Below are positions 15,000-54,600 of a DNA stretch of 64,000 bases, one piece after another. The notes beneath the pieces were generated by a model. It searched no databases and was not told where the DNA came from. It saw nothing but the letters and a program-made list of their open reading frames with translations. Each line of letters begins with the position of its first letter. Within the stretch, counting starts at the first letter, position 1. A program made the translations under genes and the position numbers. The DNA comes from Echinarachnius parma (lineage: Eukaryota; Echinodermata; Echinoidea; Clypeasteroida; Echinarachniidae), in contig JBAMJV010007467.1 of the NCBI GenBank assembly GCA_037951105.1, positions 1-64,000 on the forward strand. The letters run 5' to 3'.

Positions 15000-15276
15000 T
15001 CCTATAAATAGGTCAGGTCAGATGATCTCTCTTGCTACCGGTAAACATGCAACCCGGTACCACCTGCCACATGGTCGACACATTGGCGACTAAACCGAGG
15101 CCCTCCTCTGAAACAATGACCCCAGCATGAGGAGGGGGTGCTGGACCTCTTGTTAGAAGTAAGACATATATCTGATTAAGAGCTCATTTAGATCCGACAG
15201 GAGGCAAAGGAGCTCATCCTGCCTCTACCAATTCACCTTGCCAGTGCGGTAGAGTAGGCAATTATCCTTCATCAAC

Positions 15277-15444
15277 ATGGAAACGAGGCAAAGAAGAGGT
15301 CGTAATGTCCAAGGCCAAAACGGACCCAGATCTACAGGTGCTGGTAAAGCTAGGAAATTGGCGAAATGTGATCCTTCTGGTGTCAAGCCAAATTATGACA
15401 AGTTGGGTCCAAAGCCGCAAGCTCTGAGAAAGGTATCATTATGA
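15277..15444 (+). CDS. Small basic ORF in front of the LINE polyprotein
   Basis: An intact 55-codon frame starting METRQRRGRN and ending ALRKVSL, rich in Arg/Lys and Gly, with no recognised domain. Its stop overlaps the start codon of the endonuclease frame by four bases (ATGA at 15441-15444). That junction type is known from coupled termination-reinitiation in some retroelements. I infer that this may be an ORF1-like nucleic-acid-binding peptide. It is unusually short for a LINE ORF1, and it could also be a remnant of a longer one. Confidence 0.4.
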   Translation: METRQRRGRNVQGQNGPRSTGAGKARKLAKCDPSGVKPNYDKLGPKPQALRKVSL

Positions 15445-15890
15445 ACCACACAGATTTATGTATTTGCACTTACAATGGGAGAACACTGAGGTCAGAAGAA
15501 GACCTAGACATCATCCTTGAATAAATAGAGAATGTGAAGTGGCATTTCATAGGGCTCGCAGAAACAAGAAGACCACCACACCAACGGTTAAGTTAAATAG
15601 GTGTGGCCACATATTGTTTACTACCTCTGCAACAACAAGAGGAAATAATGGAGTAGGATTTCTGGTTAATAAGGACATTGAAAGTAATACACTGGAGTAT
15701 AAAGAAATATCAGACCGAATGGCATATTTGAAATTACAAATTAATAAGCAATACACAATGAAGTTTATCCAAGTTTACGCACCCACTTCAGCTTACATCG
15801 ATGAAACAGTAGAATATCTATACACTGACATAGACCGGAGAATGGCAACTGAAAATACATCCTTAACTATACTCCTCACAAAAAGAAAAT
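15441..15890 (+). pseudogene. LINE apurinic-type endonuclease, first part (broken)
   Basis: It begins MNHTDLCICTYNGRTLRSEE, the T(W/Y)N(V/G)RTL opening of LINE endonucleases, and continues HFIGLAETRR, the xGLxET motif with the catalytic Glu. A stop at 15522 and a frameshift follow. The next frame gives NNGVGFLVNKDI and FIQVYAPTSAY, the core VYAPTS motif of the fold. The domain breaks off at the nested insertion before GDFNA. Confidence 0.75.
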
Positions 15891-15904
15891 GGACACTTGT
15901 TTAA

Positions 15905-16810
15905 GTTGAAATATGTAATATTTATGTGCGACAGAGTGTACATTATCATATATCAAATTAAGGAAATTTAGTCCTCTACAGGCAGAATATAAATTAAAGG
16001 TGTAATCGTTCATGCCTGAACTGCCATGATCAGTTTACAATAGCAAGGTCTGTTTTCAAAAATAGCAAAAACAATGGACATGATGGATGGCCGCACCATT
16101 CGACTGCAATGAGTAAGCGTCTTGCTTGCAACAAGATGTGCGGGGCAAGTCTTTTATGACACTATTCAACCTTATTGTCATAAACAAACACCAAAAATAC
16201 ACATTTTCCAATAAAACAGGGCCAGGTTATGAGAACATCAACATATTGGTCTGTTTTGAGGTATAAAGCTTGTCTGTTTCATATGTCCCTTCCAATTTCA
16301 ACTATAGTTACCTAGGGAAGTGACATGTTAGAGACTGTCCAAATGGTTGACCAAGGGTGACATCAGATTTTGAAGATCTTTGGACTACGGTAGAATTCTT
16401 GAGAAAATTTATACCAAGTTTCATGCTGAAATAAGGGCACAAACTGTAGTTTCGACGAATAAACCTTAGCCATGGAATTCCCCATTGTGTTACATTTGGA
16501 TGAAAATAAAACCTACAACGTTCACAATTTGTCTTCATTACACCTTTTCTATTGAGATGAAACTAAAAAAGATCACATTTGTAATGAAATAATTATGCTA
16601 TGTCATGAATATAGCGTTTATATCATGTTTGCCAACATTTAAATGGTTGAATGGATGTTCCATTTTTGCTATTTTTTACAACAGACCTTGCGGTGGTTAA
16701 TTGACCGTGACAAGTCATGCATGAATGATTTCTCCTGGGTTATATGCTAATATCGAAGAGGGTTATTTTATCTTTAATTTGATATACAATAACATATATT
16801 TTATCTTCAA
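15905..16810. mobile_element. Inverted-repeat MITE nested in the LINE endonuclease
   Basis: Two imperfect arms face each other. The left has atatcaaattaa, cgttcatgcctgaactgcc and gcaaggtctgttttcaaaaa; the right has tttttacaacagaccttgc, agtcatgcatgaatgatt and ttaatttgatat. Arms are roughly 150-170 bp with about 70 percent identity around a centre of about 580 bp. LINE coding text stops before it and resumes after it (KVGVRQDEEENGVGPFGIGD). Exact ends and target duplication are not certain. Confidence 0.6.
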
Positions 16811-16811
16811 A

Positions 16812-16948
16812 GGTAGGCGTGAGACAAGATGAGGAAGAGAATGGTGTAGGACCATTTGGGATAGGTGACCGGAACGAGAAAGGAGAAAGGCTTCTAGAAT
16901 ATGTTGCAAGCAGAAACATGGTGATATGGAAATATTTGGTTTCTTAAA
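16812..16948 (+). pseudogene. LINE endonuclease, C-terminal part
   Basis: The frame reads KVGVRQDEEENGVGPFGIGD then RNEKGERLLEYVASRNMVIW, which corresponds to the G(D)FNAKVG...GPFG.G.RNE.GERLLEF segment that closes LINE endonuclease domains. It stops soon afterwards. The catalytic GDFNA stretch itself is lost at the insertion border. Confidence 0.75.
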
Positions 16949-17048
16949 GCATAAAGCATAAAGTGATTATGGAGGAAGCAGAGAAGCTAGCTAATGGTAA
17001 ACATAGATAGTAAACACAAACAATAGTAACGCGGAAGATATTCGAAAA

Positions 17049-17276
17049 ATGAATGAAATAAGAACAGCTTTTAAACCCTTTAGACAGACATCTGCACGAA
17101 ATAAGATCGAGTATACAGAACTAAATCAGACAATCCGCAAGATGAGAAGGCAGCAAAAGCGACAACACAGGACCAAGATGTTAAAAGACATGAAAGAGGT
17201 GCTGGAAAGTAATAAAGGGCCCAAAATCATCAATAAGAAACTGGAGGAAGGAAAAAAGCTTTTATCACGACAAAGC
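17049..17276 (+). pseudogene. LINE linker between endonuclease and RT
   Basis: A 75-residue open piece that is very Lys/Arg/Gln-rich (NQTIRKMRRQQKRQHRTKML), in the usual position and with the usual composition of the endonuclease-RT linker. A frameshift at its end leads into the RT frame. Confidence 0.6.
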
Positions 17277-18145
17277 TAAAATCACACAAAATCATTGAGG
17301 AATTATATAAAGAACTATACAATACTGATAGACCAGATTGGAGAACAGAAGAAAACTGGAATAAAAAAGCGGACAGTTTACCATCCATTGATACAGACGA
17401 AGTGAAGAAAGCTCTAGATCACATGAAGAAAGGAAAGGCTCCTGGAGAGGACAAGTTAACTGCTGACATACATGACATATTGAAGCTGGGAGGATAGAGT
17501 AATGTCAACATCTTGACAGCATTTTTCAACAGGATACTTCAACTGGAACAAGTTCCTACCCAGTGGAATTAATCTAAAGTTATTATACTGTTCAACAAAT
17601 TAGATACGAAATACATAAAGAATAATTACAGACTCATTAGTTTACTACCTCATATGTATAAGGTCTTCACAAAAATCACTTTTGCAAGAATCCAAAGACA
17701 GCTAGATACAAATCAGCTGAGAGAACAGGCAGCCTTTCGAGCAGGATTTAGAACATCATAATCATCTACACACTTTAAATCAGATCATTGAAAAGGCGAA
17801 GGAATATAGTTTCAACATCTGTCTAGGATTCGTGGATTACGAGAAGGCTGTCGATAGTTTAGACTACCAGTCACTATTACATGTATTAGATGCTCTACAT
17901 ACATGACAGACACAGATAGACGATGATAATACATCCGCCTCATCAAAGCTATGTATAAAGATCCTAGCGCCAAAATTCACCTGGATACTACTACTACCAA
18001 TGCTTTCAAAATCCTGAAAGGTGTCAGACAGGGTGATCCAATTTCTCCGAAACTCTTTACAGCAGCCATTGAAGACGTCTTCAGAAACCTGGATTGGCAA
18101 TGGAGAAAAATTACAATAAATGGGGAATATCTGAATCATCTAAGG
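17277..18145 (+). pseudogene. LINE reverse transcriptase, fingers and palm (broken)
   Basis: Recognisable RT blocks in order: MKKGKAPGEDKLTADI (block 1), NYRLISLLPHMYKVFTKI (block 2), QAAFRAGFRTS, ICLGFVDYEKAVDSL (block A, with the usual F/Y-D replaced near the active site), then KGVRQGDPISPKLFTAAIED (block B) up to NGEYLNHLR. There are several stops (for example 17496, 17570 and 17760) and frameshifts. The active-site FADD block is cut off by the LTR insertion and resumes at 19480. Confidence 0.85.
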
Positions 18146-23305: not shown

Positions 23306-24189
23306 CCCAGCTAGCCACCTGACGTCGTGCCATCGTTGGGCCGATGTCATTTTCGTTGTAAGGGGACGTTGGGCCAACATGCGACATGCGACGTCACCGA
23401 GACGTTAAAATGTCCGCCAGCCCAACATCAGCTCGGCGTCTTTTTTTAATGCTGGCCCAACGTCATTTAGCGATTTCGGCCCAACATCAATTATTGACAA
23501 TGGCCCAATGTCAGTTCTAACGTAGGCCCAACATCGATTCCTGACGTTGAGAGAACATCAAGTTTTGACGTCGGCCCGACGTTAAAATGTCCGCCAGCCT
23601 AACATTGTCCCAACATCATTTTGTGATGTTGGGCAAATGTCAATTTCCGACAATGGCCCAACACCGAATCCTGACATAGGACAGATATCAAATTCTGATG
23701 TGGGCTCGACGTTAAAATGTCCGCCAGCCCAACATCGTCACTACGTCATTTTGTGATATTGGCATAACGTCAATTTCCGACAATGGCCCAACATCAACTC
23801 ATGACATTGGACCAACATAACATTATGATGTCGGCTCGAGGTTAAAATGTCCGCTAGCCCAACATTGTCACGACATCATTCTGTGATGTTGGTCCAACGT
23901 CAATTTCCGCCAATGGCCCAATATCAAATCCTGACGTTGGGCCAACATCAAATTCTGACGTTGGCCCGACATTAAAATGTCCGCCAGCCCGACATTAGCC
24001 CAACGTAATTTTTTATTGTTGGCCCAACATCAAATCTTGACGTTGGCCCAACATCAAATCTTGACGTTCGCCCGACGTTTGAATGTCCGCTAACCCAACA
24101 TTGGCCCAACGTCATTTTCTGATGCTGGACCAACATCAAAATTTGACAATGGCCCAATGTCAAATGGCCAACGTAGGACCAACATCAAA

Positions 24190-24813
24190 AACGTAAAAAG
24201 AAATTGGAAACATGCATAGATTCCACGTCCGATCCATGCATTTTGTTTAACCTTTACACACATTCATTCATAAATTTATAAATTCATAAATTCATAAATT
24301 CATAAATTCATAAATTCATAAATAAATAAATAAATAAATAAATATAATAAATAATAATCATAATAATTCTATAAATATCCTATTCCTATACCTATTGCCT
24401 ACTCCTAAACCTATCATCCTATCGTCCTACAAACATAGGTCGCAATCGGTATACTATATATACACCTCTTCTTAGCATGTATGTTTTGTAATAGTTAGTA
24501 TTTGTAGAGCGTTGAATTTGAAATAATCCACCTTCAAATCATATTCATAACACTATTTAAGGTGTTATTTATATTCTTATATATCCTTCTAAATTATATA
24601 CAGCAGCAAGGACATGACAAAAGTATATTTTTTTATATAAATAATTCCAAAAATCGAAAATTTTCATTTCACTTACGATCGCTTATAATCGATCATGAAT
24701 TTCCCGATAGCAATACTTCTTTTTTTTAAACTTTTGAATTACTAATGTTTGTAATCGATTAAACGAAATTCAATTCAGTATAGATTCTCAAAGCAAGTTA
24801 ACAAAAATATAAG
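24190..24813. repeat. AT-rich spacer with microsatellites
   Basis: This holds ttcataaa/ttcataaattcataaat repeats (24265-24320) running into (aaat)n to 24345, then non-repetitive AT-rich sequence. It separates the outer left arm from the inner fold-back. No gene is seen. Confidence 0.75.
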
Positions 24814-27079
24814 TACCCAGCTAGCTAACTGATGTCGGACCGGTGTCGGCAGGTCGTCGGCAAGATCGCGGTCGGCAAACAGACGTCGCGCCAACATTAC
24901 GCCAACGTCGAATTTAAGTTGGAGGTTTTGGAAATGAAATAAGTCGGAAAATGGTTGTAGTTTAATGTCGTGCCGATGTCATTAAGTTGGCGAAAAAAAT
25001 ACGTCTCAAATAAAACGTCGCGCTAAAATCGCACCAATGCCGAAACTGGTACCAATTTAAGAGCTTGATAGAGGGTTGTAATATTAATGTTGGGCCGATG
25101 TCAATAAACCAACATGAATATGACATCTCAAATATGACGTTGGGCCAATGTTGTACCGATGTCGGAATATATCATTTTAAGAGGTCGGTAAATGGTTGAA
25201 TGTGGAATTGATGTCGGACGGATGTTATTAATTGGACATCAATATGACATCACAAATATGACGTCAAGCCGATATCGCGCCGATGTCAGAATTGGCAGCA
25301 ATGACACGAGTCGGCAAATAGTCATGAAATCGATGTTCAGCCGATGTCAATATTCTGACATGAATATGTCATCTCCAATATGACGTCGGGATAATTTCGC
25401 GCCGATGTTGGAACTGGTAGCAATTAAAGAGGTCGGTAAATGGTTGTAACATTGATGTCGGACCAATGAGTTTTATTGGACATCCATATGACATCTCAAT
25501 TATGACGCCAAAGCGATATCCTGCCGATGTCATAAATGGCACCAATGAAACTAATCATTAAATAGTCATTAAATGGATGTTGTGCCGATGTCAATAATTC
25601 GACATGAATATGACATCTCAAATATAAAATCGGCCTTCTATCGCCCCGATGTTGGAACTGGTAGTAATTTAAGAGGTCGGTAAAATGCTGTGAACTTGAT
25701 GTCGGGTCACAGTTATTAATTAGACCTAAATATGACATCCAAAATATGACTTTGGGCCTATACCGCACAGATGTCGGAACTTTACGAAATGTTAAAGGTG
25801 GGTAAAATGTTTTGAAATAGATGTCGGGCGGATGTCATTACTCCTACATAAATATGACATCTCTACTATGACGTCAGATATTGTGATGATGTTGTATCTG
25901 GTAGCAATTTAAGAGGTCGGTACATGGTTGTGAAATTGATGTCTGGCCAATGTTATTAATTGGACCTCAATATGACATCTCTATATGATGACGCCAAAGC
26001 GATATCCTGCCGATGTCAGAACTGACAGCAATTAAACAAGTCGGCAAATGGTCATTAAACTGATGTTGTGCCGATGTCATTAATCCGACATGAATAAGAG
26101 ATCTCAAATATGACGTCGGGCTAATATCGCGCAGATGTTGGAACTGGTAGCAAATTAAGAGGTCAGTCAAAGATTGCAAAATTGATGTTGGGCTTATGTT
26201 ATTAAATATACATAAATATGACAGCTCAAATATGACGTTGGGTCAATGTTGTACCGATGTCGGAACTGGCGACCATTTGCCGGCTTGTTTCATTGCTGCC
26301 AGTTCTGACATCGGCAGGATATCGCTATGGCGTCATCATTGAGATGTCATATTCATGTCTAATCATTGACTTCGGCACAACATCAATTAAATGACCATTT
26401 GCCGAGTTGTTTCATTGCTGCAAGTTCTTACATCAGCCTGACATATTTATCACATTCATGTCTAATTAATAACATCGGACCGATATCAATTTTACTACCA
26501 TTTACCGACCTCCTTAATTGCTATCTTTTCCGACATCGGCGCGATATTAGCCCGACGTCATATTGGAGATGGCATATTCATGTCCGACTATTGACATCGG
26601 CGCAACATCACTTTTATGATCATTTGCCGACTTGTTTCATTGCTGTCAGTTCTGACATCGGCACGATATCGCATTGACGTCATCATTGAGATGTCATATT
26701 CATGTCGGATCATTGACATCGGCTCAACATCAACTTAATGACTATTAGCCGACTTGATTCACTGCTGCCCATTCTGACGTCGTAGGATTTCGGTTTGACG
26801 TAAAAATTGAGATGTCCTATTCTTGTCTCATTACTAACATTGTCCCGACATCAATTTCACAACCATGACTGACCACTGACTGAATAATTGATGTTGGGTC
26901 GAAATCGCAAAATGACGTTTGGCCAGCATTAAAAAAACAAAAACGCCGCGCTGATGTTGGGCTGGCGGACATTTTTACGTCGCGGCGACGTCGGATTTTT
27001 AATGTAGGCCCAACGTCGTCTTAAAACGACTTTTTACATTGGCCCAATGTTGGCACAACGTCAGGTGGCTAGCTGGGTA
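24814..27079. mobile_element. Inner fold-back, related but distinct unit
   Basis: It starts TACCCAGCTAGCTAACTGAT and a matching inverted end closes at 27079. Left-arm units (about 150-190 bp) repeat aatatgacatctcaaatatg, gcgccgatgttggaactggt and agaggtcggtaaatggttg. The orientation flips near 26255, after which the complement follows (agttctgacatcggcaggat, gagatgtcatattcatgtc). A segment of outer-type text (about 26885-27079) interrupts the right arm, which resumes at 27080-27150, so the assembly history is complex. Confidence 0.75.
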
Positions 27080-27394
27080 GCGACCTCTTAAATTGATACC
27101 AGTCCCAACATCGGCGCTATATTAGGTCGACCTCTTATTGGAGATGTCATATTAATGACATTGGGCCATTGTCAAATTTTGATGTTGGTCCAGCATCAAA
27201 CGTCGGGCGAACGTCAAGATTTGATGTTGGGCCAACAATACAAAATAACGTTGGGCTAATGTCGGGCTGGCGGACATTGTAATGTCGGGCCAACGTCAGA
27301 ATTTGATGTTGGCCCAACGTCAGGATTTGATATTGGGCCATTGGCGGAAATTGACATTGGGCCAACATCACAGAATGATGTTGTGACAATGTTG

Positions 27395-28330
27395 GGCTAG
27401 TGGACATTTTAACCTCGCGCCCACATCATAATGTTATGTTGGTCCAATGTCATGAGTTGATGTTGGGCCATTGTCAGAAATTGACGTATCACAAAATGAC
27501 GTGGTGACGATGTTGGGCTGGCGGACATTTTAACGTCGAGCCCACATCAGAATTTGATACTGTCCTATGTCAGGATTTGGTGTTGGGCCATTGTCGGAAA
27601 TTGACATTTGCCCGACATCACAAAATGATGTTGGGACAATGTTAGGCTAGCGGACATTTTAACCTCGCGCCCACATCATAATGTTATGTTGGTCCAATGT
27701 CATGAGTTGATGTTGGGCCATTGTCAGAAATTGACGTATCACAAAATGACGTGGTGACGATGTTGGGCTGGCGGACATTTTAACGTCGAGCCCACATCAG
27801 AATTTGATATCTGTCCTATGTCAGGATTTGGTGTTGGGCCATTGTCGGAAATTGACATTTGCCCGACATCACAAAATGATGTTGGGACAATGTTAGGCTA
27901 GCGGACATTTTAACCTCGCGCCCACATCATAATGTTATGTTGGTCCAATGTCATGAGTTGATGTTGGGCCATTGTCAGAAATTGACGTATCACAAAATGA
28001 CGTGGTGACGATGTTGGGCTGGCGGACATTTTAACGTCGAGCCCACATCAGAATTTGATATCTGTCCTATGTCAGGATTTGGTGTTGGGCCATTGTCGGA
28101 AATTGACATTTGCCCGACATCACAAAATGATGTTGGGACAATGTTAGGCTAGCGGACATTTTAACCTCGCGCCCACATCATAATGTTATGTTGGTCCAAT
28201 GTCATGAGTTGATGTTGGGCCATTGTCAGAAATTGACGTATCACAAAATGACGTGGTTACGATGTTGGGCTGGCGGACATTTTAACCTCGAGCCAACCGC
28301 GATAAGCCGACATCCGGCCAACAACTTATG
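27395..28330 (+). repeat. 251-bp higher-order tandem repeat
   Basis: Units start with ggctag(c/t)ggacatttta at 27395, 27645, 27896 and 28147, so the periods are 250, 251 and 251. Each unit is a dimer of two related half-units (ggctagcggacattttaacc and ggctggcggacattttaacg). The last copies are almost identical, so the array expanded recently by unequal exchange inside an otherwise old arm. Confidence 0.9.
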
Positions 28331-28361
28331 ACATCGGCACGACGTCAGGTGGCTAGCTGGG

Positions 28362-28703
28362 CACACATACACACTCAAATTGATATTATGCTTTGTTATT
28401 CAGTACCATATTGAAGACAGGGGGGGGGGGGGGCATGGGGGCACGTCCCCCTAACAATTTGTGGAAAATGGTAACATACAGTACATAGAACTAACTTAAA
28501 TAATACAATATATGTACATAAAGTGTACCTCGATATTGTTCCTGTTCATTTAATCCCCTCCCCCTCCAATCAGTAGCTCAATTTGTCAGTACCTACCCTT
28601 CCATATATATACATTGGGAGTATTGTGTTAATAAAAGATAATTAATAGGATCAGAATTATGATAACACTTCGTTTGTGGCATACATCATGTAATGTGTAT
28701 CCG
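28362..28703. other. G-tract and AT-rich spacer
   Basis: A G-run at 28422-28435 is followed by the hairpin gggggcacgtccccc, like the one at 23205. The rest is AT-rich without a gene. Confidence 0.5.
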
Positions 28704-28733
28704 TTATCTATGGATGCAATCAACTATACAAAC

Positions 28734-28905
28734 CTGGGCAGAATTGGATTTCCTAACTAAGAACTTGTACATGACCCTGAGCCAGCATTTTTCATCATCC
28801 CCAGAAAGCAATGGGTTACCCTGAAGGGCCTGAACACTCCATGCAAGAATATAAGAACGGCCCATGATATTCATTGATGGGTAATGAAAGATAGCCATAC
28901 CAGTG
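28734..28905 (-). CDS. Candidate internal exon of an unrecognised gene
   Basis: On the minus strand an AG acceptor (28907-28906) opens a 172-base exon that ends CAG|GTTTGT. Joined to the candidate first exon at 29280-29350, the phase fits exactly (2+1). The peptide contains TGMAIFHYPSMNIMGRSY, ILAWSVQALQGNPLLSGDDE and CWLRVMYKFLVRK, a protein-like mixture without low complexity. I do not recognise the family. The acceptor's pyrimidine tract is poor, and no next exon is visible before the fold-back, so this may be a chance frame. Confidence 0.3.
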
Positions 28906-28949
28906 CTGGACTTCAGACCAGGTAGTGCAGCAGTGTAACCACATTGTTT

Positions 28950-29265
28950 TATATTAATGATAATTTAGTTGTGTCCATATTTGCTGAAATTGTCTTCCTA
29001 ATCTTGTGTTTTGTCGTGCATTTGTGTTTCAGTGCCTATTTCTTATACTTCACTCAACTACACATTGACCCCTTTACTCCTTCTTTTCCTAAACTGTGTT
29101 CTCTATTATGACGTGTATGCGATATATCAGTTGTTTTTGCCTTTAGTTTATTATGTTTTTAAGGTGCCCCGCTTACAAGCTATGCTTTGTTAATTTCTTG
29201 TATTTTATGTATTTTGATATTTGGTTGAAATAAAATATTCTTCAACAGCAACTTAGTAAGAAACT
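28950..29265 (+). other. Possible LINE 3' tail
   Basis: The stretch gttttt.aaggtgccccgct, tacaagctatgctttg and gaaataaaatattc looks like the 3' end of CR1/L2-type LINEs (ggtgcc...gctttg... then AATAAA), but no RT text precedes it in a clear frame. Confidence 0.25.
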
Positions 29266-29279
29266 GATTTAGTCTTTAC

Positions 29280-29350
29280 CTAGTATAATTCCAGTACAAA
29301 ATATGGACCACACGAGACCTGTCATCAGAAAGCCTTAATGAGCTCGCCAT
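29280..29350 (-). CDS. Candidate first coding exon, unrecognised gene
   Basis: On the minus strand, ATG at 29350 has an A at -3 and G at +4. A 71-base frame (MASSLRLSDDRSRVVHILYW, then NYT) ends ACTAG|GTAAAG, a good donor. It leaves two bases, which the exon at 28905 completes. There is no signal peptide. It is supported only by the start context, the donor and the matching phase. Confidence 0.25.
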
Positions 29351-30190
29351 ATTTCAATTTGCTGATTTGTGTAGGTACCCAAACGTTCTCCCGAATCTCA
29401 GCTTTCCTTGATATAATCTACTCTAGTAAGAACTGCATATTAACATGAACAGAGTCAACAATCCAGCAACAACATAAACAATGTATCCATTGTCTCCGCT
29501 TTATATTTGTAAGGGTATTGTGGCACCAGGACACAATGTCTGATTGTCATTCTGTTGAATCATCAGTCTGTTGTGTGTCAAGTAACATTTAGTTTAAGGC
29601 ACATTATTACTCTATACATGTAGCCATGCTGATGCATATCCTCACTGGAAATAAGACGAACAGAACTATATATTATTGCCAATATGACCAATACATAAAC
29701 AAGACGGCATATAGACAAATTGTATGTATACCAACACTATTCGTACACATGATAACCAAATTGACAAACTGAGTTCAGACAAAATTATTAAACCAACAGC
29801 CAGTCGCAGGAAATATTGAATCACAAACATTTGAATAAGGGAAAAAGCGAATATACAACTGAAAAGTACTCGATCGGTAGAAATGAAGGGTGTTAGTAAA
29901 GCATGTGAGCACCTCTAGGAGTTACAGTTGGCTTGAATAACCCCTGGGGAGTTGAAAAAGTGCACTTTTAAGTTCAGAGAGACCGTGGGTGTATTTTTGA
30001 TAACTGAGTTAAAAATGAATTTTAGATGCTGTATTTAAATCAAATTTGTGTACAATTTTAATAATATTGAGCATTAAATAATATTTCTACTTTGCCGCCA
30101 TTTACCAGATAGCCATCTTATTTTCAGTGCAGTAGCTACCATGTATATATGGCTGTATTTCCTGCCTCTGATATCTAATATTTCCCGGCC
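29351..30190. other. Nothing recognised
   Basis: AT-rich sequence without supported genes or repeats. Confidence 0.5.
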
Positions 30191-30194
30191 ACCT

Positions 30195-30677
30195 CTGTAA
30201 ATACAGGAAGCCAATAAGCAGTCCATGACCTTTGACCATTGACCTCATGACCCAGAAATATATATATATGATATCTATTCCTCAAGGTGCATATATGTAC
30301 TATGTTTGCTGCCAATTTGTCAAATGGTTCTCAAGATATGACACAAATTTGGCTTTTTGCATATATAATTAACTCTGTGACCTTTGACCTTTGACCTCAT
30401 GACCCCAAAATTTCACCAGATCATCGTCTCTACGAAGTGCATGTAGGTACCCAGTTTTATGCAAATCGGTCAAGCAGTTTTTGAGATATAGCCATACCAA
30501 GGTACACGTTGGCAGCCATTTTGAAAAAATGGCGCCCACGGCCAACAGGGGTCAGGTCCGTATTGGCTACGATTCTAAATTTGATTAGAATCACCTTATC
30601 TTCATGTGTGCTAAATTCCACGCTGTTATCACAAAGTGCATAATTCACCCATATTGGCCAGCTAATCTGCCCCACTA
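30195..30677 (-). mobile_element. DR1-carrying TA-repeat family, inverted long copy
   Basis: Reverse complement of 22629-23100. Landmarks on +: tgacctttgaccattgacctc (30228), tgacctttgacctttgacct (30380), catgaccccaaaatttcacc, aatggcgcccacggccaaca and gctaatctgccccacta at the end. It again carries two clusters of spaced AGGTCA half sites, in the opposite orientation. Confidence 0.8.
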
Positions 30678-30788
30678 ATATTACTTCCCAAGTTTCCAAA
30701 AGCATTTCTTTCTTATTTGAACAGTATGCACATTTGTTATATTCAAAGTTGAATAATTTATAATATTGTTTTCTATCGATTTTGATAG

Positions 30789-30871
30789 GTGTCTCTGGGA
30801 ACAGTGACGACCGTGAAGCAAACATCCGTGGAATGGTAGAAAAGATGAACACGAGGAGACTTACAGTGTGA
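30789..30871 (+). CDS. Candidate terminal coding exon, unrecognised gene
   Basis: On + the acceptor ttctatcgattttgatag at 30788 opens a frame reading VSGNSDDREANIRGMVEKMN then TRRLTV and a TGA stop at 30869-30871. The composition (charged, helical, ends at a clean stop) looks like the C-terminus of a real protein. No upstream exon of the same gene is found in the window, and the acceptor is only moderate. Confidence 0.25.
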
Positions 30872-31079
30872 GGCCGGGATCGACAAGCTAAGTCTGCTTT
30901 GGGGGAAAATACAAAGCTGGATTGAACGATATATGACAGATTTAAAGGAATCTATAGGCCTTCCGGAATTCAAGGCTACGTCGGCAAAACACAGAAATTT
31001 CAACAATACGCTTTTGCAAGTCGGATACTACGAGCTTGCCTACCATGTGATGATACTTGAGCAACAGATTATGTCCCAT

Positions 31080-31383: not shown

Positions 31384-31532
31384 TGAGATACAATCGATTG
31401 TAAGTTACAATTAATTGTAAGTCAGATCGTGTGTTCTAAATGCGCAAATCTGATTGGTTGAAACGCGCAAATTGTCTGACTTACAATTAATTGTAACGTA
31501 CAATCGATTGTAAATCTTTCTGCTACGGGGCC
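31384..31532. mobile_element. Palindromic 150-bp MITE (GCAGAAAGAGATACAATCGA family)
   Basis: The arms gagatacaatcgattgtaag and acgtacaatcgattgtaaat, then ctttctgctacggggcc, face each other around cagatcgtgtgttctaaatg and gcgcaaatctgattggttg. Each arm has inner palindromes (caatcgattg, acaattaattgt). The left-most end is missing about 14 bases compared with the copy at 53176-53321. Confidence 0.85.
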
Positions 31533-32146: not shown

Positions 32147-32361
32147 TTAAAGGGATCTAGTAACTTTGTTGACATGTGCAAAAAGTGATGAATGAAACGA
32201 TCCAGTGGATAGTTTAACATCTTTTTAACGAAAGGGAAATTTGAAAAACCGAAACCTTTCCCTTGCTTTTGTTGTTAATACAAACACAACAAGGTATTAG
32301 AGAACCGCTAGAATTCCAATTGGATTTTGAGGATTTGGACAATGTTACTAAGTCCCTTTAA
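32147..32361. mobile_element. TTAA-flanked MITE family 2
   Basis: TTAA then AGGGATCTAGTAACTTTGTT on the left, and gaggatttggacaatgttac then TAAGTCCCTTTAA on the right. Body words: cgaaagggaaatttgaaaa, aaccgaaacctttccc, ggtattagagaaccgctag. It is a shortened copy; longer ones lie at 44679-45067 and 46648-49358. Confidence 0.8.
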
Positions 32362-33917: not shown

Positions 33918-34912
33918 TCAAAGGGGTAGTACAGTTTTGGTAAGGCTGAAATTTAGTAACTAAAATTTGCATAATAACATTACACACTAATAGTTATAAC
34001 TCCACCATGCTCGAAAGGTATACAACATTACAAACGACTGTAAGTAAAAAGCCTGTTATCATTCAAAAAGAGCCATTAAAACACAAGAGGGCGATCTCTA
34101 AAAAAACATTGGTTTCAACCATTTGTATACAAAATTATGCATGTGATGTTTTGTGGACATAATGATTAGATAGAGAGATCATCAACAACTATTTAAAAAC
34201 CTCTTTTTTAAACCATCGAATTAATCTGGGGCCCCAGATTTATTCCGATCGTAAACGATATGATTATCAGTCATTATTATGTAGGCGCAATATCAATCGA
34301 ATCATTATTATGATTGCATGTATCATTAACCTATTATTAGGTAGACGCAATTATCCTTCAAGGTCTATTTTCACGATATCTGGTAATTAAAGAGATCTAG
34401 TAACATTGTCTAAATCCTCAAAATCCAATTGGAATTCTAGCGGTTCCCTCATACCTTGTTATATTCATATTAACAATAGAATCATGGGACAGGTTTCGGT
34501 TTTTCATATTTCCATTTCGTTAAAAAGATATTTATGATTGAAGTGCTCAGATGTTAAATTATCCACTGGATAGCCGTAACCGTGTACAAAGTCAGTGCAA
34601 TGAGTTAGTGAAAGATCAAAATTAATAATAATTATCACTTTGCAATTTTGCTAATTACTCGGCCATATAACGTCCATTTAACTTGAAATGTTCACACAAT
34701 ACCCAGTGGACATATAAGATAGCAACAATATACATTGTACCAACCATTAATTATTGATATTTCAGCCGTCTCTGAACCGATTTTGATCAAATAAAGTTGA
34801 TTCTGTCATTAAAATTGTATGCTCTTTCAAATTCGACACTCAGTTTTCATTATCTCACAACAAAATCATTTCGTGCAGCGCCCTTTGTTCCCAAACTGAA
34901 CTACCCCTTTAA
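33918..34912. mobile_element. TTAA MITE family 1 with a family 2 MITE nested inside
   Basis: The ends are aaaggggtagtacagttttgg on the left and tgaactaccccttTAA on the right (left target mutated to TCAA). At 34387, TTAAAGAGATCTAGTAACAT starts a family 2 copy that runs to about 34752 (accaaccattaat) and lacks its far end. Family 1 text then resumes with gatatttcagccgtctctga. So family 2 was still moving after this family 1 copy had landed. Confidence 0.8.
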
Positions 34913-44678: not shown

Positions 44679-45067
44679 TTAAAGGGACTTGTAACATTGT
44701 CCAAATCCTCAAAATAAAATTTTCATTCTAGCGGTTCCCTCATACCTTGTTGTATTCGTATTAACAATAAAATCATGGGACAGGTTTCAGTTTTTCAAAT
44801 TTCCCTTTCGTTACAAAGATATGTACGTACGATCGAAGTATTCAGATAAGAAAAACTCCGGGCGAGTTTTTCTTCTGTGTACAAAGTGAGTGCAGTGAGT
44901 TATTGAATATCATTTTGCATTTTCGCTCATTACTTGGCCATGCAATGTCCATTTGACTTGAATTTTTCACAAAATACCCTGTGGACATATGAGATAACAA
45001 TAATATACATTGCATCAACCATTCATCACTTTTTGCACATGTCAACAAAGTTACTAGATCCCTTTAA
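44679..45067. mobile_element. TTAA-flanked MITE family 2, full copy
   Basis: TTAA at 44679-44682 and 45064-45067. It begins AGGGACTTGTAACATTGTCC and ends caacaaagttactagatccc. Body: ttctagcggttccctcatac, gggacaggtttcagtttttc and aatgtccatttgacttgaa. About 385 bp; this is the most complete copy, and it lies 550 bp in front of the receptor start codon. Confidence 0.85.
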
Positions 45068-45688: not shown

Positions 45689-48600
45689 GTGAGTATAGTT
45701 ATATGTACACCTCTATTATATAGGCTGACTTATTTACCTAAACAGTCAACCTTGATGTAGCTACCACGGGAAGTAAAGAACAGTACCACCCTAAAAAGAG
45801 GGACAAATATCCCCATAACATAATGAAATTCACGTCCACTGATCGATCATCTCACCAAAATGACCATCCCTTGCGAAGGTGTTATATAAACAGGTTTGAC
45901 TGTAATTGGATCATGTGAACAATTATGAGTTTCTTTTTGGGCCCAGTGTACTTTTAAATTTTACATGGCTGTAGAGCAGAGCCTTTTTCGTATTAATTCC
46001 CAAAACCCGAAAGTGAAAGAACCAAAAGCTCACTGATCTGTAACAAACAGTTTAAAACGAAACGACAAAAGTGTTTATTGTTTCAGTCTCATTGAGTCAA
46101 TATTTGTCGCATGAACTCTCGAGTGTCGGAGTTCCGCAGACTAATATACAAACACAATTGATTGTGTTATATTTACATTCCGGTGGTGTGATTATGTTGT
46201 TTTTGCATAAAATAATTCCCTGGCATAAAATTCTATGGGGCAGTGTGTTGACCTAGAGTGCTTCACATATCTTTGCAAGATATAACATGCATAAATGAAC
46301 CATGACATCGCATACTATTTTATAAATGTATTATAACTCTCAAAATAATGTTATGATACGGTCCAACAATATATTAACACTATTTTAAACAATAACGATT
46401 ATTGCTTTGGAAAAATAAAGTGAACATGATACAGTCTTAACAGTTCATGAATATAGTGAATGTAGAAATTATAGTATGTGCCATATGAATGGGTACTTGC
46501 GAATCGATCAAAAGGAAACACGACGTTGAATAAGGTCGATTGAAGGCATTATCTCATCCGACTGGCATGATTACAGAGAAGAGAGTACCACAAATAACGG
46601 AAGCTTGTTCGGGTTACGGATAAGGATACGATCAGGCTGGTAGAATTTTAAAGGGATCTAGTAACTTTGTTGGCAAGTGCTAAAAGTTATGAATGGGGCA
46701 ATTCCACGCCAAAGTGGACATTTGACCAACAAATTTACAAGCATTTTTATGATACAAATTTGGTATCAAATCAAAGCTTAAATTCTATATTTTTGGAATT
46801 CAATGAGAACATTTTAGTTTTACATAATTTTAGTTTTTTTTTTATAATAACTTTATAACCATAATTGAACCCCACAAATTTGACATTTTTGTGAAAAAGT
46901 GTTTTGATCCTGTGTTTGTTTTATATTTCCCCAGTTAAGCCTAAAAACCATTATTCTGACTCCTGAGATATGACCATTTCGTAAAATAGTAAATTTGTAT
47001 GATTTATTTGATTTGTTATGCTTCAATGACTTCTTATTTTCAGCCTATGAAAATGTCCTTCCGTTACCGAAAAATCAATATTTTTAATTTTGTGGCTCAC
47101 ATAATTGTTAGAGAGCAGACCAATCTTCAGTGCAAAGCAAGTTCAAGTAGGCCTTCCCATTGCTAACAATTGTATTACTCATTGTTTCTTCGTTAATTAA
47201 TAAATAACAAAAGAAAATGTCCTTCCGTTACCATACACATGGTAACAGATGGACAAGGTACCTCATATTACATATTATGACAAAATTTATGTTCAAAAAT
47301 TTGTCTCTCATATATGAAAACCCCATGAGACAATACCTGCAATGGCCAGCTATCAGTGGCGTAGCGTGGTCAGACTAGTAATTTTCTGTGTTTCAACCAA
47401 TCAGATTTGTGCATTTAGAACATTTGATCTGGCTCACAATTGATTTTATCTCTTTCTGCAACAGGGCCCTTGTACCATGATGCCATTTGTCTGGATTTCT
47501 ATTGTATGGGGATTAGTAGGTCTATTTAACTGTGGTGAGCCAGGGTGTGAATAGGCTCTGATCATGACTTTGAATAGGTCTTTTTTTTATACAATACACC
47601 CCTATAGAATTCTTGGACATGGGTGTAGGTCTAAAATAATTACATTTTACATGAAATTTGCAAACTAAAAACAAGGCTGTAGAAAAAAGCAAGAAATAAC
47701 ATATCTCCAATTCTTTCATATGTTGTAGAAATTATATCAAGCCAAGATTTAAGCAAAAACAATTCTCAAAATTATTTGATCCACGAGGTAAAACAGAAGG
47801 TCAAAATCTAAGGTCAAAGGTTATTGTATCCAAACTCGCTCATGCATGAACACAAATGGCATAAATGGATTGCACATAACATCTCCAGTCCAATGACACC
47901 TTTACAAAATAAATTGACCCAACGGTTAATGGAAAATGGCCATTTGAAAAATGGTGCCCACGCCCATTTCTTACAAAACTCCCCCATAAGAATCGACCAT
48001 AGCGCCAAAACCATTGAGCGGATTGGGCTAAAACTTAAATATTTGCGCTTTTAAATGTTGAAATATCATACATACCAAATATTAGCAAATTTGAAGGGGG
48101 CTGCGATGAAAATTTTCAATTTTGTTAAAGGTGATTTGACATGGAATGACCCTACTGTGTCATATCATACATTTATAGTCCATTATGTCCTTCCGTTACC
48201 GAACATTGGTCCGCTTTGTGTGAAATAACTCAAATATCTGCGGACAAATTTTAATCAAAGAACAAGTAAATTCTTCTTAACCCTTCAGAGAATGAAATGT
48301 GTACCCTTAAAATATTTTGTATTATTTAATATCACAGTGTTTTAGTTAAAACTGATTTGATAACAAAACCTTGTCCATTTTAGTGTCCTTCCGTTACCGA
48401 CCTCATTTGTATGCATATTCAATATTGTGCGGAGATTATGGGACCTTAAAACTGTATGTTTTGGAAGTATTGTTATCAAAATAGACTGTTCTCACAACAC
48501 AAGTATTTAAAAATGTCTTTCTTAAAGTTGACAATTTGTGTCTGAGTGTCCTTCCGTTACCATGGATTGACCATGAATAAGAGCCATTGGAGCATGAAAT

Positions 48601-51600
48601 ATAGTAAGAAAAAAATAGAAATGTAAATGCTTGTGATGTCCATATGCTATCTATGATACAAACTCATTTTAGACCACAAAAGAGATGTTTCCTTCTCATA
48701 AATGGTCTTTAAATTTCAAAATTAATTTTATTGTACAATTCCAATAGACTTTTCAGAGGTCCTTCCGTTACCGTCCTTCCGTTACCGAACACTGGAGTAA
48801 TTAATTTCTCATAATTAATATACCAATGTAGATATTTTTCTTAAAAGGTGGTGTTATACTCTGTGAACATAAGGAAATTGACTAGTAGCCAACTTAACAT
48901 GATAAACCTCGTAACTTCACAGAGATTGGGTCATAACTAAAAAAATTGAAAATCCATGTCCATTTTGGCGTCCTTCCGTTACCGGCCTCATTAGTGTCCA
49001 TATCTAATTTACATAATGCGGTCAAAATTTTAGAAATAGTGGAAATCAAAGGTGTCCCAACAAGGATCAAAGACATGCCATTTAGAATAAAAAATCAAAA
49101 CCAGGATCCTGGAATTATTTGATTGAAGTTCCAAAATTGTGTCTGAATGTCCTTCCGTTACCGTGGAATTGCCCAATGATAGACAATTTCATATCTGAAC
49201 ACTTCAATCGTAAATATCTTTTGAACAAAATGGATATATGAAAAACCGAAACCTGTCCCGTGCTTTTATTGGTTATATGAATATGATAAGGTATGAGAGA
49301 ACCACTATAGTTCCGAGTAAGTTTTGAGGATTTGGACAATGTTACTAAGTCCCTTTAAAGGGGGTTCTACAGAAACGAAAGCTCTACTTTTTAGGCGAGT
49401 AAACAACTTGGAATTGGGGAAACTGATAGGTGTAATGCAATTATGTTTAAACATTACCCACGGGAAAAACATACTGTATACCCATAAAGGGCTTGGATTC
49501 CATGGGGGCGGGGTAGGGGCCGTGCCATCCTAAACAAAGGGAAAGGACTAGTAATTGGACGCCAACCTACCCATCACATTGCGATTATGGCGTTTTAAAT
49601 ATATATTCATGTTAGGAAGGAAACCATGACTGGAACATTTTGTATTTAGAGCTTCTTTGTACATTATAATGTATCTCAATTTGTTTTTCTTCTAAACATG
49701 ATAACATCTACTTGAAACAAACCAGGGAACCTTCACCGGCGGTCAAAGTACATTTTGTTTCTTTGTTTCCTTTTTTTTAAAGCATGAATCATCACCTTGT
49801 TTAATAATGCATCTGTCCTTATTTTGTTATTCCATTTAAAAATAGCGATTTAATTATTATACAATACAAATTATCCCAATAAAGTAGATACGTACTGAAA
49901 TATCACCCACGCTTAAACATATACGTTGATACATAAACATTCTTTATACTCTCTGTAATATTTGCGAAAGTGAAATAGATTGTGCTAATAAAAACTGTTA
50001 TCGATACTTGATACAAACTTGAATTGGTCGTATTTAATTTATTTTTGGAAATGATAAATTGCTTTGATTTTATCCAGTATATACTATTTTCTTGTTGCCT
50101 CATTTTATTCATAGTTAAAGGGATAGTTGAGTTTTGGTATAGAAGGCGCTACACAAAATAATTTGTTTTTGAGATAATGGAAAACTGAGTGTCAAATTTG
50201 AAAGAGCATACAATTGTAATGAAAGAATAAACTTTATTTGATCAAAATCGGTTCAGAAATGCACATAACCATTTGTAATATTTGTGGAGCCCCACAATTA
50301 TTCGATAATTTTGAACCAGCTGTTAACTTTTTTTTTATAAATGCTACCTCCTTTCAAACATTTACAAAAAGAGGTTTTTAAATATTTGTTGATTATCTCT
50401 CTATCTAATCATTATTTCAACAAAACATCACATGCACAATATTTTATTTTAAATGGTTGAAACCAATGAGTTTTTAGAGAGCGCCCATTTGAGTTTTAAC
50501 GGCTATTTTTTAATGATATCATGCTTTTTACTTTGTCACTTGTTATTTGTTATTCCTTTCGAGTATGGTGGAGTTATAACTGTTAGTTTGTAATGTAATG
50601 GTGCTGGTTTTAGTTACTAAAATTCAGTTTGACCTAAAGTGTACCAAAACTCAACTATCCCTTTAAACTGCAACATCCTGAAAATTATTGAAAATCCTGC
50701 CAGAAAAAAAATATACAGATATGTATTAAGTATTTACAACACTTTGCTATCTTCCGCTTTCAAAGATATGAGATTAGCAGGCGGAAGCAATCCCTTCGAA
50801 GGTCGAGTAGAGGTAAACGTAGAGGGAATCGGCTGGAACACCATATGTGGGAATTCGTGGGACATGAATGACGTGATGGTCACGTGTCGGCAACTGGGAT
50901 TCTCTGGAGCACAGTTAGATGTCTCGACCGCGGAGTTTGGTACAGGAACTGCTCCAAAGTACAAACAGTCTCTCCTCTGCAAAGGGAGTAAGTTGTTTGA
51001 ACCATTAAGTTGGCACGTTCGGAAAACACAATGCATGGGGGGGGGGGGGGGGGGAGGGGCGGAGAATTGTTCACACAATGCTCCCCCCATGCATTGTGCT
51101 TTGCAAACGAGCCGACGCCTCTTCTCTGAAGTAACTACAATGTCCTTTGATACATTTAAAATCAACCGAATCATATTACATTTGTGACCCCCCACCGTCA
51201 AGCCCCCAAAAACTTGACCATAACGAGTTTAGACTTCTGTACATAGTTAGAAAGAATAGACTCTAAGCTTTAATAATTATGATATATAACTTATCAAATT
51301 AGACCAGTATAACCTATTAAAAAAAGCGATTAAAAGTAGGAGAGTGAGCAAGTCTAGTTTTACCGAATAAGGAGAAAACGGGCTCTAAAGAATAGGGTTA
51401 CTCAGGCGCGCGGTGCGGAGAAGCTTTTTATAACTGCTTATAACTCAACTTTTGCTTTGTTTTAAGACTCCAAATTTTAACAGTTGATAGATGAATGATT
51501 ATACTTTTAGGTAAAGTAAAGTTCAACATTTTAATTTGTTTGCATAATTTTCAAATTTTGGCTCGTAACACACAAACGTATCTGGCGACTTTATGTGGGT

Positions 51601-54600
51601 TTCAGGAAAGGGGGTCACATTTGGTATACTGATTACCAAGTGACAATGAGATGATCATGGTAAACATGATTCTTGAAAAACACAAGCAGTTGGAACCCTA
51701 TCATTAACCGGAAGTAAAGTTAGGTCTAATTATGTTTATGCTTCATTTCAAATTATATTGATATGTTCAAACTGAGTGGCGGCAAAATGATGAACAGAAT
51801 AATATAGAGGCCTCATGTCCAACTTGATTGTTAAATTAGACCATTTGCCGAGGTAACTGTGAATATTTCACTACAATGATGGCATAATTGTCACTGATCT
51901 CAGCCACAGGGTACAGTCTCGACAACAAACGCGTTTGAGGTAAAACAAAACATTTCCTCCTCCTGTTACCATGGGCCAAACCACCAGTTACAAGAGACAT
52001 GTGCAAGCTCTAAATGGGTTTGGTTGAATTTGACAAAATTACTGGATCACTTTGAATAAATTAGTATTATTACGCTCATTTATACAGAATAATGTATATA
52101 TAATTTATTTCAGATGAAGACAGCCTGAATGAATGCTCGAAGCGAGTGGCAAGCTGCGCAGGAGGAACCACTATCGCAGGAGCTGTGTGCCATGGTGAGA
52201 CAGCCACCAAATCACTGATGGACACCGTTTAGGTTCTTGAAAAGTTTTTGTTAAGCGTGTCCCTTGTTAGGTATTTAATTACCTTTAAGTAAAGTTCTAA
52301 ATAATGGTACGCCACTTTCCTGTAAACGGTGGAATGTGGCATAGACATAAGAAATTATATATTTACATAACTATTATGGTCTTATTTAATTGTATTCATA
52401 ATAATTATTGCAGAACATTCAAATAATATTGAAAAGTTAAAATTCGGGCAGAAGTCATTTCACATTTAGGCAGCAAGGCGTTGTAAGAGAAATATGGACA
52501 TTGCCTATAGAACGCCCGTGATTAAAACACTTTTTATTTCTTTTTAGTTTATATATTGTGTAAGATGTTTGGTTTGATTTTTCATTGTATTTTTTTATTT
52601 TCGATAATAGTTCTTCTGTATAAAACAGCATGTGTCTGATCACGATATTTTAATCGTGATTTGGGGAATAAATATATACAAACATATGCGCTTTAATACA
52701 TTTGTTTTAGACGATTTATACCTCGGTTGCTATGGCGACGATCCACAAGACCGACCTCTCACCGGCGCCTTGTTCACCAACTCAACCCACATGACCATAG
52801 ATTACTGCAGGTCCTTCTGTAACCAACGCGGGTTTAAATACGCGGGACTGGAGCTTGGTTCCGAGTGCTACTGCGGGTCAGAGAGTGCTAACTACTCAGC
52901 ATACGGACGGTATATAGACTCTAATTGCAGACATTTGTGCTCGGGAAACCGTTTGCAAGCTTGTGGAGGAATCGCAAGGATGGCAGTTCACATTGCAAGT
53001 AAGCCCATACCGAATGCAAATGAGGTTACTAGATTCGTTCTGAAAATAATCACTTTCTATTTGTGTTCCCACCTGAAACAAATTAAATTAATTTGTTTAA
53101 AATTTGTAATGAAAATGAGTTTTATCCATTAATTTATTAATTGGGTGATTGAAACAAAAAAATATTTTAACACATGGCCCCGTTGCAGAAAGAGATATAA
53201 TCGATTGAAGTCAGATCATGTGTTCTAAATGCGCGAATCTGATTGGTTAAAACGCGCAAAGTTCTGACTTACAATCAATTGTAACTTACAATCGATTGTA
53301 TCTCTTTCTGCAACGGGACCCTGGACTATTAGTCTGAGAATAAAACAGTGTCTATTTGAATTCCATGACTTGCCGCTGATTGTTATTTTACGTACATGAA
53401 ATGTCATTATAAGCAAGTTATATTTAGGATGGAATTCTCTTTATACACTAGAAACTTTAAACTAACATGTCTACCACAATGGATCTCCATTATGTATGAA
53501 ACAATGCTGGAAGAATACGACGTACACAATTTCACACACATATACGGGATTTATTATCTAATTAAGATGTTGACATGTTGCTTTTATGGGAATGTACTCG
53601 TTAACACATTCAGGACTGATAGTTTTTGCTATAACATAGACCTAAGCCAGAGTATTTTCGAGACCAGTCCGGAAAGGGTTCCCCTCCCTCCTATATCCCC
53701 TCTATTCTCCATTCTCTCATTATACCCTTTTTATGCCATAATCACTCACTCCTCACTTCCTCTCTCATGTGTAGCCCCACCAACGACACCGATTCCAACA
53801 CAACCTGCCTCATCAACCAACCCAAACAGATCGAATCAGAGCGCAGAACCACCAAGTGGTGTTACCACAGATATTACAAACCCAGGACTGTTACCACTTG
53901 AGAGCAGAAAAGGTATAAGCTTAAAGGGCAATGAAACCCAAGCAAAATGTTGCTTTCATAGTCTTGAAGAGATTAAGAAGAATAATCTCTGAAAGTTAGA
54001 GCATAATCGGGTCAAAAACAAGAAAACTACGGCTCTTTGAAGATGTCCATTTATTCCTGTGGGGAAGTCCAATTGGCAACGCACTCTGATAAGTTTTGTA
54101 CACAAATGTTCCCATTTTTACAGTTTTCTTCATAGTCCCATTTTTCCATTCCCCCAACTCATGATATGTTATGTATAAAAGCATTCTACAAAACATATGT
54201 TGAACTCGAACAAAGGGTAAACATAAATTTTGAGAAAATTGAACAAAACTGAAATTTTGTGTACAAAATGTATGGGGAGTTGTCATAGTTTTTTTTATTT
54301 CTTGACCGATTGTGCTCAAATTTTCAGAGACTATTCATTATATTTAGTGTCTTATAGTGCATACAACAATTTGTCTGGATTTCATTGTCCTTTAATGGCT
54401 GCATCTAAAAACACAGTTCGTATATATTATATATACGGCTACGATGTGTTCAGCACCATGCTATAAAGGTACCCGTCATTTGGCATTTTAAAAATGATGG
54501 TGATATTTTTCGGTTTATTTGCATTCAGTACATTGTATTTGTATGATTTAATTTCACATTTCAAAGTGAAGGGTGTTTTCAATTATGTCGTAGTGATATT

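Follow-up and report, generated by a model that had tools for sequence, protein, structure and literature searches.

A constrained 14-mer ladder in a DNA transposon of Echinarachnius parma, and its candidate role as a protein-binding site

We analyzed a window of 64,000 nucleotides from the echinoid Echinarachnius parma (GenBank assembly GCA_037951105.1, contig JBAMJV010007467.1, positions 1 to 64,000 of the forward strand, the whole stretch being what we call the window). At 46696..49174 on the + strand, the window carries a transposable element that belongs to the main, roughly 2.5-kb form of its family. Within this element the 14-mer GTCCTTCCGTTACC occurs in nine exact copies, all on the + strand, between 47055 and 49162. 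The 14-mer is under constraint beyond that of its surroundings, as shown at three depths: among the copies of the family, between its subfamilies, and between duplicated units inside the element. Judged from the sequences, the element is probably a non-autonomous DNA transposon, and the 14-mer a putative binding site of a transposition protein that is kept intact by selection for mobility.

The element and its ladder of 14-mers

The boundaries of the element are given by its terminal inverted repeats (TIRs), its target site duplication (TSD) and nine other full-length copies. The TIRs, GGGCAATTCCACG, are 13 bp long and match perfectly between left (46696..46708, + strand) and right (49162..49174, - strand), and the TSD, AATG, lies at 46692..46695 and 49175..49178. 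TIRs and a TSD of fixed length make this a TIR DNA transposon (class II). A 13-bp TIR and a 4-bp TSD are found in all ten full-length copies (the window copy and nine other loci) and in all three copies of a shorter subfamily, one of which (L046) departs from the rest by a mismatch in its left TIR and a lost base in its right one. Indeed, 4-bp TSDs were found at 13 of the 13 fetched elements having both ends; their sequence is varied and in no case TTAA. The termini are GGGCAATT, and the TIR starts with GG. The longest open frame wholly within the element has 80 codons and no Pfam match, and the element is therefore taken to be non-autonomous; Rfam gave no matches at the gathering score and ARAGORN no genes. 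A candidate third end at 48140-48152, resembling the TIR with three mismatches, was dropped, as about 12 such matches are expected per window and 10 were seen.

The nine copies of the 14-mer form a ladder of + strand sites. Copies 1 and 2 lie in the left arm (47055..47068 and 47219..47232), and the second forms a 17-nt inverted repeat with a degenerate inverted 14-mer, GTCCATCTGTTACC, which has two mismatches and lies on the - strand at 47241..47254. Copies 3, 4 and 5 (48187..48200, 48385..48398 and 48548..48561) are motifs A, B and C of a + strand segment that we call unit 1 (48187..48575), in which motif C is followed by a degenerate right end, ATGGATTGACCATG, recognized by alignment to 48773-49176. 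Copy 6 (48759..48772) stands head to tail against copy 7 (48773..48786), which, together with copy 8 (48970..48983) and copy 9 (49149..49162), provides motifs A', B' and C' of unit 2 (48773..49174, + strand), the unit that includes the right end. The last C of copy 9 is also the first base of the right TIR, so that the ladder abuts the right end. With the abutting pair merged, the right-arm spacings are 198, 163, 225, 197 and 179. No site with one mismatch to the 14-mer is present in the window, and 14 sites are found at up to three mismatches, where 100 shuffles averaged 2.39. The only tandem array reported in the element is the 28-bp double motif; the ladder is not satellite DNA built of head-to-tail, alike monomers, its units being about 60% alike at best. 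The exact copies and the perfect 13-bp ends bear out the original prediction, which had described nine mismatch-free, same-strand 14-mers inside one inverted-repeat element.

How common is the 14-mer in the genome? A search of the assembly (1,200,326,526 bp in 14,790 contigs) found 8,347 exact occurrences, 4,174 on the + strand and 4,173 on the - strand, against 5 for a reversed-letter control. The loci considered below are the 16 that hold the 100 places listed of these 8,347 (8,247 were not listed), and they contain 105 copies of the 14-mer. Within every one of the 16 loci, all copies share a strand. Nine of the 16 loci carry the nine-site ladder, seven with nearly equal spacings and two with an altered long gap, caused by a deletion in L039 and an insertion in L045. 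Fifteen of the 16 align to the element over at least 400 bp, and the last (L047) is a 50-bp right end. All 100 listed places are within the element family or its right-end relic; the concern that the 14-mer might simply be frequent in unrelated DNA does not apply among the places listed.

The element belongs to a high-copy, recently amplified family. Of the other nine full-length copies, eight match the window copy at 96.7-97.5% in every long block, and the ninth, which has a deletion, at 97.5-97.7% in two blocks. The ten copies together yield a main-family consensus of 2498 bp, from which the window copy differs by 22 substitutions in about 2.5 kb; the earlier description of the transposon as diverged was mistaken in this respect. 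Proportional extrapolation from the sample gives roughly 1,300 loci, some 700 of them with a ladder, in an assembly that may hold both haplotypes.

Constraint on the 14-mer at three depths

Among the ten full-length copies, 251 substitutions were counted in 23,338 bases outside the motif and none in 1,260 bases inside it. At the outside rate, 13.6 motif substitutions would be expected, or 14.2 after correction for base composition. When nine 14-mers were placed at random 20,000 times, just one set was free of substitutions, as were 11 of 2,497 shifted layouts. Moreover, 151 of the 2,372 non-motif columns hold singletons, and none of the 126 motif columns does. In these ten copies the motif positions are thus not as variable as the flanks; equal variability is what the original prediction had named as fatal to its claim. 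The count left out the partial copies (L035, L040 and L041), the short ones (L044, L046 and L048) and the 50-bp relic (L047); all nine loci passed the exact-end extraction and none was dropped. With distance from the motif, the substitution rate runs from 1.13% (1-5 bases) to 0.38% (6-10 bases) and 0.53% (11-20 bases), the overall rate being about 1.1%. Bases within 20 of the motif are slower taken together (0.64% versus 1.12%), but the nearest five are not.

In the same alignment, the shared differences comprise 12 transitions and 36 transversions and the singletons 64 and 87, respectively, and 64 of all 251 are no more than 2 bases from a gap; the transversion-rich shared differences may reflect the alignment. 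A strand-asymmetric mutation pattern was considered and dropped (p 0.22 with singletons only).

Copies outside the set of ten add detail. L047 has no countable bases, and the partial copies L040 and L041 have no substitutions in 59 and 70 motif bases, where 0.9 and 1.7 would be expected. L035 is older, with 3.4% substitutions outside the motif and many indels; it has 2 substitutions in 96 motif bases plus one indel, with 3.2 expected, and two of its seven motif sites are damaged. This copy has no clear excess of conservation and fits ordinary decay after insertion. Singletons among the ten copies can be old changes of the source lineage, and selection for mobility is enough to explain the pattern. 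Because private changes in the ten copies need not postdate insertion, constraint before insertion and protection after it are not separable here, and we do not claim protection.

The second depth is provided by the short subfamily, three elements of about 770-775 bp with 4-bp TSDs (ATAG in L044, ACTT in L046 and CTTG in L048). What these share with the main family is limited to the first bases on the left and some 420 bp of right-arm sequence; outside the motif, they differ from it by 17-18%. Within the motif the differences number 1 in 56 (L044), 0 in 42 (L046) and 2 in 56 (L048), against 7.5-10 expected for each.

The third depth lies within the element itself. An alignment of 48187-48561 with 48773-49162 reaches a score of 69, versus 21 +/- 8 for shuffled sequence, and none of 300 shuffles reaches it; on this score the duplication of units 1 and 2 is real, with spacers that are weakly alike. 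Between the two units all 42 of 42 motif bases are identical, and identity outside the motif is about 60% at most, in the family consensus. In the window copy, the unit spacers have an identity of 0.61, not above that of shuffles (0.64), and a spacer-by-spacer comparison gave 3 of 28 pairs at p<0.06, of which two join equivalent spacers, with 1-2 expected by chance. The earlier description of the homology as barely traceable is correct for this one internal duplication. Outside the motif, L044 is 82% like unit 2 and 65% like unit 1, and the unit duplication therefore predates the split of the subfamilies. This answers the puzzle posed by the original prediction: the spacers diverged during the mobile phase of the element lineage and not after the landing of the window copy.

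The 14-mer also retains a dinucleotide, CpG, that has mostly been lost from the remaining element. With the motifs removed, the CpG observed/expected ratio of the element is 0.34, less than in any of the 617 overlapping 2,300-bp intervals of the window (median 0.86, minimum 0.40); its TpG/CpA ratio is 1.40, where 95% of the intervals have 1.35 or less. Sixteen of the 36 CpGs of the element lie in motif copies or at their edge, and the motif CpG is intact in all nine copies of the window element. Across the ten full-length copies, 11 of 468 CpG bases outside the motif have changed and none within it. The intervals with the lowest CpG ratios (0.40-0.49) fall at 14101-17700 and 28201-30900, which are possibly other methylated repeats.

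A putative binding site and its rivals

What would keep the motif intact? In the model that we favor, the element would depend for its movement on a protein that is specific to it and provided in trans, and the 14-mer would be recognised by the DNA-binding domain of a transposase or by an accessory protein that binds the ends. The original 14-mer may have been the site at the right end, next to the TIR; right-arm duplication, together with slippage at the abutting copies, would have multiplied it inward, and the extra copies would give higher occupancy. Elements with broken sites would move less, so that each round of amplification would renew an intact ladder while the spacers drift. After insertion, a copy would decay normally. 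The proposal that the motif is a protein-binding site under selection was already part of the original prediction; its selection half now has support in the constraint among copies, subfamilies and units, while the protein was not found.

Several points weigh against this model. The copies were found through the 14-mer and the sample of ten is small; retrieval needed one exact site, so that no copy without an intact motif can be included. Extraction of the full-length copies further required exact ends and the ninth motif, and those 41 bases were not independently sampled. Neither a transposase nor an autonomous element was found in the sequences examined: the element contains no complete frame above 80 aa, and in the 20 kb around one right-end relic three frames of 137-178 aa gave no Pfam match. 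At the left end there is no intact inverted copy of the 14-mer but an unspecific trace only; a degenerate inverted motif beside the left TIR was dropped as a candidate, for although shuffling gave p 0.01, 133 of 4,894 intervals of the element score equally. Finally, all nine copies point in the same direction, including those of the left arm, whereas the arrays of CACTA transposons (see below) contain direct and inverted copies. Perhaps the one-way layout has a function of its own, with a protein seated on nine same-direction sites about one nucleosome apart and selection keeping the full ladder, but we regard this polar form of the model as rather unlikely.

The main rival to a transposition protein is a host DNA-binding factor, acting in transcription, at a boundary or in nucleosome positioning, whose binding to the 14-mer would aid the expression, tolerance or positioning of the element. 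We consider this unlikely, even though the spacing speaks for it: the right-arm spacings are unusually even (coefficient of variation 0.12, p 0.0003 in 20,000 random placements), and the best period is 192 bp (p 0.011, periods of 100-300 scanned), close to a typical nucleosome repeat length. The sites are also spread through the element and not only at its ends, and TAACGG and GGAA within the 14-mer resemble Myb and ETS cores. However, the even spacing may stem from duplication, the 14-mer abuts the terminal repeat, and no site was found outside the element family or its right-end relic among the 100 places listed.

The alternative offered in the original prediction was that the motif serves as a conversion or recombination unit, its identity being due to exchange among copies and not to selection. 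The number of abutting motif copies does change, from one in L046 to two in the main family, L044 and L048 and three in L041 (2559-2600), probably through slippage or unequal exchange at that site. In addition, the joint of the internal duplication lies at the abutting pair, and exchange or slippage at the motif probably happened. If exchange kept the copies identical, though, neighbours should not differ as they do: in L044 and L048 the first abutting copy is GTCCTTCCGTTACT and the one 14 bp away ends in C (ACT versus ACC), and copy B' of L048 is unlike its neighbours, which argues that homogenisation is weak. Moreover, conversion confined to 14 bp is implausible, as the next five bases change at about 1%. 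Because the abutting copies of L044 and L048 differ and stay different, this explanation is disfavoured and looks very unlikely.

That nothing is specially conserved, the family being young and all alike (full-length copies about 96.7-97.7% alike to the window copy) and the nine motifs recent repeats, is almost certainly wrong in view of 0 changes in 1,260 motif bases against 13.6 expected within the same ten copies, 0-2 differences against 7.5-10 expected between subfamilies, and 42 of 42 identical motif bases between units about 60% alike.

Relation to known transposons and setting in the window

In maize Spm/En, subterminal repeats are recognised by TNPA, and the same has been proposed for soybean Tgmt*; CACTA (En/Spm) elements carry motif units of 10-20 bp near their ends, 4 on the left and 24 on the right in Tgmt*, and non-autonomous members are common (PMC2613891, PMC8195511). 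By analogy, the window element appears to be like CACTA elements (maize Spm/En, soybean Tgmt*, lettuce LsC1) in layout, with a short repeated motif and more copies on one side, but not in its ends or target duplication. It ends in GGGCAATTCCACG, and its exact copies are one-stranded throughout the element; the termini GGGCAATT, which are not CACTA-like, and a TSD of 4 bp instead of 3 rule out membership in CACTA/EnSpm.

KolobokP, a Kolobok lineage of marine invertebrates, has TIRs of 11-18 bp, 5'-RR termini and TSDs of 3-5 bp without a strong target preference; its non-autonomous oyster families measure 1.7-3.3 kb, its hosts include lancelets and echinoderms, and its defining trait is that both ends carry long direct repeats, about 450 or 660 bp in length, which have TIRs of their own (PMC9587614). 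The window element agrees in TIR length (13 bp), terminal bases (GG) and TSD (4 bp) but differs in having no transposase or His-Me nuclease. Comparison of the element with itself revealed no direct repeat between left end and right end, the largest direct repeat being the right-arm duplication, and the main text of PMC9587614 contains no 14-mer array (neither 'ccgttac' nor 'subterminal' occurs in it). An exclusion of KolobokP by its TSD was withdrawn in view of the 3-5 bp range without strong preference; the missing terminal direct repeats alone oppose membership, which is possible on the sequence features seen. Sola, Academ, Chapaev and Ginger are 4-bp TSD groups as well.

Kolobok sensu stricto and piggyBac are likewise similar in having a 4-bp TSD, but it is TTAA there and in none of the 13 TSDs here, which rules them out. 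Galileo of Drosophila offers a further parallel, as its terminal segments are more constrained than its coding ones and its terminal regions can gain length through tandem repeats and recruitment; it has 7-8 bp TSDs and long inverted repeats (PMC4168063). The 4-bp TSD and 13-bp TIR of the window element rule out this P superfamily. Assignment to a superfamily rests on a match of the first 11 terminal bases (PMC4455052) or on a related transposase. A single full-text literature search with the 14-mer, its complement and GGGCAATTCCACG gave no match, only 12-letter forms in 2 papers on unrelated subjects, and GGGTCATTCCA, GGGCAATTCCA and their complements returned no transposon title among the 30 papers listed of 136. 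The 16-mer TGTCCTTCCGTTACCR matches 24 stretches of viral contigs, once each, which we judged, without a control, to be at chance level; two motif copies at element-like spacing were found in none of the viral contigs and none of the bacterial and archaeal genomes scanned.

The element interrupts a Kolobok-like miniature inverted-repeat transposable element (MITE) with a TTAA target, whose ends, TTAAAGGGAYYTAGTAAC, lie just outside it at 46648 and 49358. The left part of this host MITE (46648..46695, + strand) is 92% identical over 48 bp to 32147-32194, and the right part (49175..49358, + strand) is 82% identical over 146 bp to the right end of an element-free copy of 215 bp at 32147-32361. 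The homology on the left reaches the first base of the element; on the right, no clear likeness is seen until 49213. A longer MITE copy at 44679-45067 and a partial one at 34387-34571 indicate that the 32147 copy has itself lost an internal stretch, the joint of this deletion falling at that same point. The empty site can therefore be placed only approximately, and for the AATG duplication we rely on its flanks and the other copies. Kolobok elements have a TTAA target and AG termini (PMC9587614), and the interrupted MITE fits both. Several copies of this MITE family with TTAAAGGGAYYTAGTAAC ends are present in the window, in long and internally deleted forms.

Pieces of another small repeat occur at 47369-47470, inside the element and probably captured by it, and at 31403-31532 and 53176-53322, the two places outside the element, where the repeat contains ACTTACAATCAATTGTAAGT-like palindromes. 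A cluster of diverged tandem arrays occupies 23525-28294, with periods of 24, 106, 122, 130, 244 and 251 bp, and several of these arrays are built on a TTGGCCCAACATCAAAT-like word. SRCR and WSC domains are encoded at 50633-51187 and 52611-53132, respectively, and together with the size of the assembly they point to an animal genome.

To our knowledge, arrays of short protein-binding sites near transposon ends have been described mainly in plants. Here, a likely binding site of a transposition protein can be read from DNA sequence alone by way of internal controls, the 14-mer being unchanged where copies depart by about 1% from their consensus, nearly unchanged between subfamilies 18% apart, and identical in units 40% apart. 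Together with the 13-bp ends, the 14-mer gives searches for the autonomous partner and the superfamily a starting point. If the polar ladder were true, the transposition complex would be laid along the element and not on mirrored ends; and if the one-way layout matters, the family would put to the test the common view of transposases as acting on mirrored ends.

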